Part shown: one piece after another, positions 25,638 to 28,891 of the stretch
How positions within the stretch are numbered: position 1 is the first letter of the stretch
Layout of the letters: every line of letters begins with the position of its first letter
Translations under genes and position numbers: made by a program
The notes under the pieces: generated by a model
The model's input: only the letters and a program-made list of their open reading frames with translations
Database searches by the model: none
What the model was told of the DNA's origin: nothing
Origin: Thermodesulfovibrio sp. 3907-1M
GTDB lineage: Bacteria > Nitrospirota > Thermodesulfovibrionia > Thermodesulfovibrionales > Thermodesulfovibrionaceae
Length of the DNA: 64,000 nucleotides
Direction: 5' to 3'
Assembly (NCBI RefSeq): GCF_040450955.1
Contig: NZ_CP144373.1
Location: 972,486-1,036,485 of the forward strand

Positions 25638-26483
25638 TCAACAAAGGGTCTGCACCACTTTACACCAGTATCCTTCAAAACTTTTCAATGCTTTTTTAGC
25701 ATCAGCCTCATTGTTAAACACTCCAAACACTGTAGAGCCGCTTCCGCTCATCAGAGCTTTTTTAGCGCCAGCTTCAATCAATTTTCTTTTAATTTTTTCT
25801 ATCTCAGGATACTTTCCTAAAACAGTATTTTCAAGATCATTCCACAACTGAAAACTATTAATATCGCCACTACAGAGTAGATTATACAACTGCCAAATAT
25901 TATTATTTATTTTTTCGTATTCTGTTGTCAATTGAGTTTCCAGATTTAAAGATTCATAAGCCCACTTTGTAGAAATGCTGAAATCTGGCTTAACCAGTAA
26001 AAGCGTGTAAGATTTTTGAATTTTTAAAGGTTTAACTATATCACCAATTCCTTCCACAATACATACTGGAAGATAAAAGAAAAAAGGAATATCACTGCCA
26101 ATTGAGCTTCCTATCTCATGGAGTGTTTTTATGTCCAGATTGAGCTGCCACAGTTCATTTAAAGCTTTAAGAGTAACAGCTGCGTCAGAACTGCCTCCAC
26201 CAAGACCTGCACCTATCGGGATTTCCTTTTTTAGAATAACATGAACACCTTTTTTTATTTCAGTGTATTCCCGTAATGCCTGAATTGCCTTGTATACAAG
26301 ATTATTTTCCTTTTTTAATGGCAGGTTTGTTTCAATTTCTATTTTTTCCGAAGATTTAAAAATCAGGGTATCATGCAGATCTATGGCATGCATTAATGTA
26401 ATAATGTCATGGTAACCATCCTGCCTTTTTCTTAAAACTGAAAGCGACCAGTTTATTTTAGCAAATGCTTTAAAGGTAAGCAT
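25638..26483 (-). CDS. ispE: 4-diphosphocytidyl-2-C-methyl-D-erythritol kinase
   Basis: A 281-residue GHMP kinase of the MEP isoprenoid pathway. Motifs are KINWSLSVLRKRQDGYHDI at the N-terminus, the ATP loop PIGAGLGGGSSDAAVTL and LMSGSGSTVFGVF near the end. The start directly abuts the stop of the TPR gene upstream, so they are co-transcribed. Terminal-helix length is normal. Confidence 0.95.
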   Translation of the reverse strand: MLTFKAFAKINWSLSVLRKRQDGYHDIITLMHAIDLHDTLIFKSSEKIEIETNLPLKKENNLVYKAIQALREYTEIKKGVHVILKKEIPIGAGLGGGSSDAAVTLKALNELWQLNLDIKTLHEIGSSIGSDIPFFFYLPVCIVEGIGDIVKPLKIQKSYTLLLVKPDFSISTKWAYESLNLETQLTTEYEKINNNIWQLYNLLCSGDINSFQLWNDLENTVLGKYPEIEKIKRKLIEAGAKKALMSGSGSTVFGVFNNEADAKKALKSFEGYWCKVVQTLC

Positions 26484-28141
26484 TATTTAATTAAAAGCTG
26501 AATTTCTTTTATCTTTTTTTCTACTCTTTCTTTTAAACCTTCTTCTTTTTCATTATGTTTTAATGCTTCCTGCCAACTCTGAAGAGCTTCTTTAAAATCT
26601 CCGAGTTCTTTATAAACATCTCCAAGGTGTTCAAGAATTACTGGGTCATCTTTTACATATTTTATTGCTTCAAGAAGATACTTTAAAGCATTTTTATTGT
26701 CTCCAAGTTTGAAGTAAACCCATCCAAGACTGTCAAGATAGTATCCATTGTTGGGTTTCAGTTTTACTGCTTTTTCTATCATTGATAGAGACTCTTTCAG
26801 ATTAATGCCTCTTTCAGCATAGCTGTATCCAAGATAATTAAGAGCTTCGGCATGCTCTGGATTAAAAGAAATAACCTTTTTCATAAATTTTTCTGTTTCC
26901 TCAAATCTACCAAGTTTGTCAAAAACAACCCCTGCAGTAAAGTTCACATCAACATTATCAGGAAATTTACTGAGCGCTTCTTCAATATAATGTCTTGCTT
27001 TTTGATAATCCTTTAAATCCATAGCAGTTTCTGTGGCATAAATATAAATTTCCGGCACATTATCTGCAAACCGAAGAGTTTCATCATAAATATTTAAGGC
27101 TTCTTTAAGATTTTTCTGTTTTAAATAAACTGTAGCAAGATTTAAAAAGGCATTTATCTGCCTTGGATTGATTGAAATAATTCTTTTCAGTATCTTTTCA
27201 GCCTCTGATAGTTTTCCTGTTTCAATGTAAACTAAGGAAAGATAATACATAAGATTCAGATCATCTGGATGTTTTTTCAGGAGATACTCAAGCTCTTCCT
27301 GAGCTTTCTCATACTGTTTTGTCTGCAAGTAAAGAATAGCAAGCTTTTCATGGATCTGCTCTGCCTCTGATTTTTGTTCTTTCAGTGTTTCAAGTTCTTT
27401 TATTGCTTCTCCGTATGATTTCCGGGAAAGATACAGATTTATCAAGCGTTCTCTTGCAAAAAGATTTTCAGGATTAAGTTCTAATGCTTTTTTGAAATAT
27501 TTCTCAGCTTCTTTAAAGTTTCCTGAAATCTCCTCAACTGCTCCTAAATTTGTATATGCAGGCTCATAATCAGGATTAAGCTGAAGAATCGCTCTAAAAG
27601 TCTCCCGGGCTGATTGAAAATCCTTTTTTTCAATATAAATTACTCCAAGAAAGTGTAAAGCCATCGTGTTGTCAGGGTCTTCTTTCAGTATTTTTTTAAA
27701 GGTTTCAATAGCTTTATCGTACTTCTGGGAGATAAGATATAAATTCCCGATTTTTGAAAGCATTTCAATCCTGTTTGGCGATTGACTTAGAATCTTTTCA
27801 TATACTCCAATAGCTTCATTAACTTTTTTTTCCTTTACATAGATGGAAGCAAGAACCTGTAAAGCCTTTGTGTTTTCAGGGTCTTCCTTTAATACTTCAT
27901 TGATGTAGTTTTTTGCTGTTTCCAGTTCGTCAATCTTTAGATATGAATCAGCTAAAAGTACTTTAAGAAGTTTTGATAATGGGTCTTCTTTTAATGCTTC
28001 TTTGTAAAAGTCAATTGCTTTATTTAAGTCTCCGTTTATGCTGGCATAATATCCAGCCATGAAATTAAAATAAACTTCTCCATTTGCTGGGATGGAAATA
28101 AAAAGAAAAAAAATAAAAATTAGAAATAAAACATATCGCAT
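26483..28141 (-). CDS. Exported tetratricopeptide-repeat protein
   Basis: A 552-residue protein with a hydrophobic N-terminal signal (FLIFIFFLFISIPANG) followed by about 14 TPR units filling the rest, with consensus pieces such as GNFKEAEKYFKKALELNPEN. TPR arrays mediate protein-protein contacts; similar proteins serve in outer-membrane, pilus or exopolysaccharide assembly, but no specific role can be read here. A CATAAT box lies 5 bases before the ATG, so the message may be leaderless. It sits just after the smORF terminator. Confidence 0.87.
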   Translation of the reverse strand: MRYVLFLIFIFFLFISIPANGEVYFNFMAGYYASINGDLNKAIDFYKEALKEDPLSKLLKVLLADSYLKIDELETAKNYINEVLKEDPENTKALQVLASIYVKEKKVNEAIGVYEKILSQSPNRIEMLSKIGNLYLISQKYDKAIETFKKILKEDPDNTMALHFLGVIYIEKKDFQSARETFRAILQLNPDYEPAYTNLGAVEEISGNFKEAEKYFKKALELNPENLFARERLINLYLSRKSYGEAIKELETLKEQKSEAEQIHEKLAILYLQTKQYEKAQEELEYLLKKHPDDLNLMYYLSLVYIETGKLSEAEKILKRIISINPRQINAFLNLATVYLKQKNLKEALNIYDETLRFADNVPEIYIYATETAMDLKDYQKARHYIEEALSKFPDNVDVNFTAGVVFDKLGRFEETEKFMKKVISFNPEHAEALNYLGYSYAERGINLKESLSMIEKAVKLKPNNGYYLDSLGWVYFKLGDNKNALKYLLEAIKYVKDDPVILEHLGDVYKELGDFKEALQSWQEALKHNEKEEGLKERVEKKIKEIQLLIK

Positions 28142-28169
28142 AAAATATTATGGCATACTCTGAAGCAAT

Positions 28170-28202
28170 AAAAAAAGGGGGAGACTTTCTCCCCCTTTTT
28201 TT
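28170..28202 (-). terminator. Strong intrinsic terminator after the Cys-rich small ORF
   Basis: GGGGGAGA pairs with TCTCCCCC around a three-base loop and is flanked by an A-run and a T-run of seven on either side, so it can work in both directions. On the minus strand it follows the small ORF stop by a few bases. Confidence 0.9.
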
Positions 28203-28206
28203 AAAC

Positions 28207-28266
28207 TTAGCAGGAACCTTTGCATTTACAGGTAGGCATTGCCTTTCCTGAAACTTTCTTAATCAT
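28207..28266 (-). CDS. 19-residue Cys-rich peptide gene (novel small ORF)
   Basis: A short frame, MIKKVSGKAMPTCKCKGSC, starts 5 bases after a strong GGGAGGTG ribosome site and ends just before a powerful terminator, the outline of a real gene. It has a basic N-half and ends in CKCKGSC with three Cys in seven residues, suggesting metal or cluster binding, disulfide/thioether formation, or a modified peptide. The Shine-Dalgarno site overlaps the last of three tandem hairpins. The gene upstream encodes a DUF2148 ferredoxin-like protein. I do not recognise the peptide family. Confidence 0.68.
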   Translation of the reverse strand: MIKKVSGKAMPTCKCKGSC

Positions 28267-28275
28267 CTTGGCACC

Positions 28276-28334
28276 TCCCTTTCATAGGGATTTTAAACCT
28301 CTTCATGAGGTTTTTTAGAGCTTCATGCTCTAAA
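28276..28334 (-). promoter_or_regulatory. Three tandem hairpins with identical ATGAA loops before the small ORF
   Basis: In transcript order on the minus strand: TTTAGAGC-ATGAA-GCTCTAAA (28334-28314), AAACCTC-ATGAA-GAGGTTT (28313-28295) and TCCCT-ATGAA-AGGGA (28290-28276). Stems differ in sequence but each closes the same five-base loop. The 3' arm of the last hairpin holds the AGGGA of the ribosome-binding site AGGGAGGTG. This looks like a repeated recognition element that could control translation of the 19-residue peptide. Symmetry means DNA binding is also possible. Confidence 0.7.
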
Positions 28335-28348
28335 TTAATTATACCATT

Positions 28349-28891
28349 TTATACAGGCTTTCTATCAAAGAAAATATTTTTCCCCTTTATGCTTAACGGG
28401 ATACCGAGTATAATCTGTGCCTCCATAACTCCAAGTTTTTTTGCGGCAACACCCACAGAATACATTACCCTGTTGTCAACTCCCAATTCTTTGGCAACTG
28501 AAACAAGTGAGCCTATTGCAATACCAAGATCAATTGCCCTGATTGTGCATACAGGTCCTGAATATTCAACCTCATATGTCTTTTGCTTAAGGATTGAACT
28601 GCAGTCATAACCACAGGCACCGCAGTTTACTCCAGCAGGTTTTTTAAAGTTCAGCCCAACAAGAATTAATCCTTCAGCATCCCTTACATTCTGAGCATCT
28701 CTTTTGAAAAATTTATGAGTTTCTTTCTCTCCAAGCAGTTCCATCTCTCTGGCAATCGCTTCCTTTTCTTCCTGAGTAACAATTCCTGTAACAATCTCAT
28801 CATCTCCCTTTGCTTTAGGTGCTGTTCTTGCTGAAATTAGCATTATTTTTGCTACAGCTTCCACTGCTTCTTTTTCTGGATTAAGTTTCAT
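28349..28891 (-). CDS. DUF2148 ferredoxin-domain protein
   Basis: A 180-residue protein of a family found mostly in anaerobes and methanogens and described only as having a ferredoxin-like domain. A Cys cluster GVNCGACGYDCSSI (about residues 90-103) could bind an iron-sulfur centre, and two more Cys lie further along (GPVCTIRA). Glycine- and alanine-rich stretches (GIAIGSLVSVAKELGVDNRVMYSVGVAAKKLG) resemble nitroreductase-like surroundings. Function unknown. The hairpin trio and Cys-rich small ORF lie directly downstream on the same strand. Confidence 0.85.
   Translation of the reverse strand: MKLNPEKEAVEAVAKIMLISARTAPKAKGDDEIVTGIVTQEEKEAIAREMELLGEKETHKFFKRDAQNVRDAEGLILVGLNFKKPAGVNCGACGYDCSSILKQKTYEVEYSGPVCTIRAIDLGIAIGSLVSVAKELGVDNRVMYSVGVAAKKLGVMEAQIILGIPLSIKGKNIFFDRKPV

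Follow-up and report, generated by a model that had tools for sequence, protein, structure and literature searches.

A minus-strand mini-gene at 28343–28170 of the window—the whole 64,000-nucleotide stretch of Thermodesulfovibrio sp. 3907-1M DNA analyzed here—probably represents the precursor gene of a two-gene RiPP-like system: an independently transcribed unit whose 19-residue peptide would be modified by a radical SAM/SPASM maturase dedicated to it. The peptide is so small that gene finders easily overlook it, yet it is retained together with the enzyme across the phylum, sulfate reducers included, and it most likely marks an undescribed peptide-modification system.

An independent mini-gene on the minus strand

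All elements of the unit lie on the minus strand and follow one another as a TATAAT box, three AUGAA-loop hairpins, a ribosome site, a 19-codon frame, and a strong terminator. The promoter −10 box, TATAAT (28338–28343), was recognized by sequence and is kept ahead of the leader in relatives; a weak −35 candidate, TTGATA (28368–28363), was likewise found by sequence, and in other families the −35 element reads TTTACA. Hairpin 1 (HP1; TTTAGAGC-ATGAA-GCTCTAAA, 28314–28334), with an 8-bp stem evident from folding and from compensatory changes, is expected to sit close to the 5′ end of the transcript. It is followed by hairpin 2 (HP2; AAACCTC-ATGAA-GAGGTTT, 7-bp stem, 28295–28313) and hairpin 3 (HP3; TCCCT-ATGAA-AGGGA, 5-bp stem, 28276–28290), both identified by folding and genus conservation and both presenting the same AUGAA loop as HP1. 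The 3′ arm of HP3 overlaps the Shine-Dalgarno sequence, AGGGAGGTG (28272–28280, recognized by sequence), which precedes the 19-codon open reading frame MIKKVSGKAMPTCKCKGSC (28207–28266); this predicted precursor peptide is identified by its orthologues and by codon-level conservation. The unit closes with a Rho-independent terminator (28195–28170, from sequence; an 8-bp GC-rich stem and a T run) that is palindromic and can act in both directions.

A previous sequence-only reading of this DNA had described three tandem hairpins with different stems and a common ATGAA loop, a third stem holding part of the ribosome site, and a strong terminator 3′ of a 19-codon frame, and every one of these elements is indeed present. 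The frame and hairpins it described also recur in related genomes: the frame is found in all 16 genus genomes, as are the hairpins, except that HP1 has been lost in one genome.

A conserved, translated peptide

A covariance model built from seven genus copies, and searched in genus and class genomes, recovered the unit in 16/16 Thermodesulfovibrio genomes and relatives with weaker scores in 128 of 230 class genomes, nearly always as a single copy. Two copies in one genome were observed at L101/L244 (G163:C26, ~1.5 kb apart) and in G165. Among the 117 distinct units collected for comparison, the consensus peptide is M(T/K/V)I(K/R)KVSKKxAxTCKCK(G/S)SC-stop, in which a lysine-rich N-terminal half, MxIKKVSKK, is followed by the conserved C-terminus TCKCK(G/S)SC with its three conserved cysteines in CxCxxxC spacing. 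The search pattern prescribed all residues from the first cysteine onward, and these are not counted as evidence of coding selection. Outside the search motif, the position 16 residues from the end is lysine in 114/117 units, encoded by AAG in 75 and AAA in 39, and the position 15 residues from the end is mostly valine, with all four codons used. Since residues are kept while codons vary, selection acts on a protein, and at the level of sequence comparison the 19-codon frame is a real translated peptide.

An exact-pattern scan for TCKCK(G/S)SC-stop across 84,980 species returned 105 places, and among the 80 of these that were listed, all but three are labeled Nitrospirota or unclassified bacteria. 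Of the three outliers, which carry other phylum labels, two are chance frames lying within other coding sequence; the third (L204) is a real peptide, on a MAG labeled Wolfebacteria, and is probably a product of binning contamination. Other classes of the phylum keep the enzyme–peptide pair, with peptide variants such as TCKCKESC, VCKCKSSC, and MIIKKVTKRTAGTCKCKESC alongside the enzyme. The system is thus probably a housekeeping one, essentially confined to Nitrospirota.

A radical SAM/SPASM enzyme as the partner

The majority of other families have, immediately upstream of the peptide, a gene for a radical SAM/SPASM protein of ~377 residues. In 76 of the 112 distinct units, the stop codon of this gene falls between −162 and +4 bases relative to the start of the peptide. 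Fifteen of the 36 non-adjacent units are those of Thermodesulfovibrio, where enzyme and peptide are unlinked, such that 76/97 units outside the genus are adjacent. The peptide promoter often lies inside the 3′ end of the enzyme gene, an arrangement that we infer would allow the peptide to be made in excess over the enzyme. In the window's own genome, a full-length orthologue of the enzyme (46% identity) is encoded 145 kb away, at G000:C1:855599-856768 (L160:5600-6769, plus strand). Across several species of the genus, the enzyme gene was seen beside metallo-beta-lactamase-fold-like and cysteine desulfurase-like genes, as named by eye.

Co-occurrence points the same way as adjacency. The enzyme is present in 120 of 230 class genomes; 114 genomes have both genes, 14 the peptide only, 6 the enzyme only, and 96 neither (Fisher p 4e-41, kinship ignored), making presence or absence concordant in 210/230. 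Ten of the 14 peptide-only genomes are <90% complete, while G028 (99% complete) and G136 (100%) carry the peptide with no close enzyme homologue. On the other side of the ledger, the enzyme-only genome G053 does have a peptide, which the covariance model missed, and in G031, G098, G100, and G181 the enzyme is present with no peptide seen near it. By adjacency outside the genus (76/97) and by co-occurrence over the class, the enzyme has a genetically linked short candidate precursor with a conserved core, as characterizes RiPP systems. The sequence-only reading was right in seeing a real peptide behind a selected RNA, but the partner is this radical SAM/SPASM enzyme and not the DUF2148 protein encoded next door.

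The enzyme itself carries two features of RiPP maturases, a radical SAM motif together with SPASM auxiliary-cluster cysteines. Across 45 diverse members, the CX3CX2C radical SAM motif (C95/C99/C102) is invariant, as are the cysteines of a SPASM-like CX10GX4C..CX1CX5CX3C..C arrangement (C292, C308, C340, C342, C348, C352, and C370). In the first member, CX1C stands where CX2C is the usual SPASM spacing. Pfam Radical_SAM matches with an E-value of 3e-22, and in profile comparison the closest solved enzymes include SkfB (the best, E 2e-23), CteB, and PqqE, all of them peptide maturases; the match is confined to the radical SAM core. None of the curated NCBIfam equivalog cut-offs is reached, the best scores being 96 vs 650 bits for WgkB and 95 vs 400 for ScmE. 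The N-terminal ~80 residues form a conserved domain without a clear match to RRE/PqqD profiles, at a position that is occupied in many maturases by an RRE (PMC8326336).

How might such a pair operate? The N-terminal KKVSKK half of the peptide would act as a recognition leader bound by the enzyme, while the C-terminal TCKCK(G/S)SC would be the core, with its Cys, Thr, and Ser residues as the sites of modification. By analogy with sactipeptide and ranthipeptide maturases, Cys-based thioether links would be the likeliest chemistry. A leader of 9–12 residues is short for a RiPP, and this counts against the RiPP reading. The product would not be an antibiotic but would serve a basic function, as a cofactor or in handling redox or metals: a housekeeping role is suggested by the occurrence of about one copy per genome and by phylum-wide retention, and the same facts, together with the lack of any protease or exporter gene that constantly accompanies the pair, suggest a modified peptide for use inside the cell. 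A fuller version of this proposal, which we advance only tentatively, is of a phylum-wide Nitrospirota housekeeping peptide cofactor of ~20 residues, whose CKCKxSC end would be cross-linked by its dedicated radical SAM/SPASM enzyme, and whose expression, in part of the lineages, would be adjusted by a factor recognizing a fixed AUGAA loop on freely varying stems. The gene pair is small enough for testing in E. coli.

A structured leader selected as RNA

With a folding energy of −23.5 kcal/mol, the leader reaches a z of −4.4 and is equaled by 1 of 200 shuffles; for the whole unit, z is −6.1. HP1–HP3 are the sole ATGAA-pentaloop hairpins of at least 5 pairs on either strand of the 64 kb window. 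For comparison across families, 55 distinct sequences were chosen by loop and position (A[TC]GAA, 26–60 bases before the start) and not by stem, so that the loop is AUGAA or ACGAA in all of them by choice of sample. In these HP1-type hairpins, all seven flanking pairs have changed on both sides, pairing cells amount to 84% vs 53% in shuffled sequences, and the covariation score of 0.76 vs 0.21 in shuffles is reached by no shuffle, with slid controls far lower. The closing pair is C-G in 45/55. The ribosome-site hairpin, the 3′ arm of which is fixed by the Shine-Dalgarno sequence, showed no covariation across families and pairing no better than shuffled. The earlier statement that stems vary under a constant loop accordingly holds for the HP1 type, where changes are compensatory across families, and does not hold for the ribosome-site hairpin.

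Judged by these substitution patterns, the AUGAA hairpins form a 5′ leader whose structure is selected as RNA. Among the 117 distinct leaders, 57 have no such hairpin and yet retain the peptide, most of them from other lineages; the structured leader is therefore limited to certain lineages and lies outside the core of the system. Putative hairpin-driven regulation is plausible, likely through mRNA stability or 5′ end protection, or through a loop-reading factor that would tune translation. An upstream AUG decoy or uORF was rejected, given that conservation is lacking in the frame that the loop AUG would open and that in several cases the loop has no AUG. Because its loop is fixed and its stems covary, the leader is also a clean handle in searches for a possible undescribed RNA-binding regulator.

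A related element was observed in the genus in the leader of a porin-like gene (G000:C1:1661583-1661660, minus strand, L302; also L294, L295, L298–L301, L304, and L305). Its order is a hairpin AAGCC-A(U/C)GAA-GGCUU, a second hairpin GCUC-AGAA-GAGC, and a strand pairing with the first hairpin and ending in a T run. In about ten genus genomes, the ANGAA hairpin overlaps the terminator, and whether the loop has U or C, the terminator arm changes to match. From this arrangement the porin leader looks like an attenuator in which the ANGAA hairpin would exclude the terminator, and it hints at a common reader of the A(U/C)GAA loop.

Weighing other explanations

The conserved CxCxxxC spacing of the three cysteines would also suit an unmodified micro-peptide, binding metal or a redox group through a CxC..C ligand set and linked to the radical SAM enzyme for some other reason, and some copies do lie away from the enzyme. 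We consider this unlikely in the face of a gene pair that is concordant in 210/230 genomes and adjacent in 76/97 units outside the genus, and of the fact that ribosomal peptides are the substrates of many SPASM enzymes (PMC8326336). The RNA might instead be the product in its own right, an sRNA-like transcript whose AUGAA hairpins titrate an RNA-binding protein following CsrB-like logic, with the peptide secondary. Such a role would fit covarying hairpins with a fixed loop, three of them in tandem in the genus, as well as the similar A(U/C)GAA hairpin of the attenuator-like porin leader and a weak, sub-threshold CsrC match, but 57/117 distinct units keep the peptide without a hairpin, the loops read AUGAA where CsrA sites are defined by GGA, and families f10 and f13 carry hairpins without CsrA. 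Together these points leave the RNA-product reading quite improbable.

An attenuation leader peptide, in which the Cys codons would sense Cys-tRNA and the terminator at 28195–28170 would control the downstream TPR gene, takes up the three Cys codons, the terminator, and the same-strand gene ~30 bp further on. The genes downstream, however, vary between families, with copies standing before unrelated genes; the minimum-energy fold contains no competing antiterminator; and the N-terminal half is kept at the residue level while codon choice is free. With neither a conserved downstream gene nor a competing structure, we reject Cys attenuation as very improbable.

Relation to known systems

The preferred reading, a short precursor matured by a radical SAM/SPASM enzyme, invites comparison with several described systems. 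SCIFF or ranthipeptide pairs of the CteA–CteB type share the short Cys-rich precursor, a radical SAM/SPASM maturase, and a wide distribution within a single bacterial class, a pattern that speaks against an antimicrobial function (PMC8326336). The SCIFF precursor, however, holds six cysteines in ~45 residues, in contrast to three in the 19–21 residues found here, the alignment with CteB (5wgg) is confined to the radical SAM core, and no SCIFF maturase model appears among the best NCBIfam matches of the enzyme. Among sactipeptide maturases (SkfB, AlbA), SkfB is the solved structure that the enzyme profile matches best (E 2e-23), but the match is limited to the radical SAM core, scores fall far below the curated SkfB and AlbA cut-offs, and no bacteriocin-type gene cluster is seen here. 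The PQQ and mycofactocin systems resemble this one in their tiny precursor, radical SAM/SPASM enzyme, and housekeeping-like retention, whereas the present enzyme lies below the mycofactocin cut-off, its N-terminal domain has no PqqD-like match, and the core is Cys-based.

On the RNA side, the CsrA-binding hairpins of CsrB/CsrC and RsmZ offer a parallel in that several small hairpins share one fixed loop and one of them covers the ribosome site. The loop here is ANGAA as opposed to ANGGA—AUGAA or ACGAA, without GGA—and CsrA was rejected as the hairpin ligand, being absent from several hairpin-bearing lineages, among them the f10 and f13 genomes. Rfam found only tRNAs in the window, and its matches to the unit all fell below the gathering score. 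In the open-access literature, we found no paper that describes the peptide, has the motif in such a setting, or ties Thermodesulfovibrio to RiPPs; the sequence-only reading had matched the unit to no described system, and nor have we. On sequence grounds, we rate it as an unnamed radical SAM/SPASM–peptide pair, restricted to the phylum and apparently housekeeping, that has an unusually short precursor and an RNA leader outside Rfam.

Neighboring genes

The TPR protein encoded downstream (26483–28141, minus strand) is a conserved neighbor but probably stands outside the system. The gene order peptide-TPR-ispE-prs is common to the genus and to family f12, where locus L079 reads rSAM-peptide-TPR-ispE-prs. 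Between terminator and TPR gene (28141–28170, minus strand) just CATAAT-ATTTT-ATG is left, conserved in the genus, and the TPR mRNA may be leaderless. Upstream, the DUF2148 gene (28349–28891, minus strand), after which the unit had previously been placed, is an incidental neighbor: it lies directly upstream of the peptide in only 7/16 genus genomes and in none of the other families examined, and was on that account dismissed as a functional partner. In family f2 (L118, L128, L169, L237, and L260), the peptide lies 3′ of an HD-GYP-like gene; the interval between the two holds nothing resembling a promoter box, and they may be co-transcribed. Flavodiiron-like, rubrerythrin-like, and Fur-like genes, named by eye from sequence starts, lie near the f10 loci and give a hint, though only that, of redox stress.
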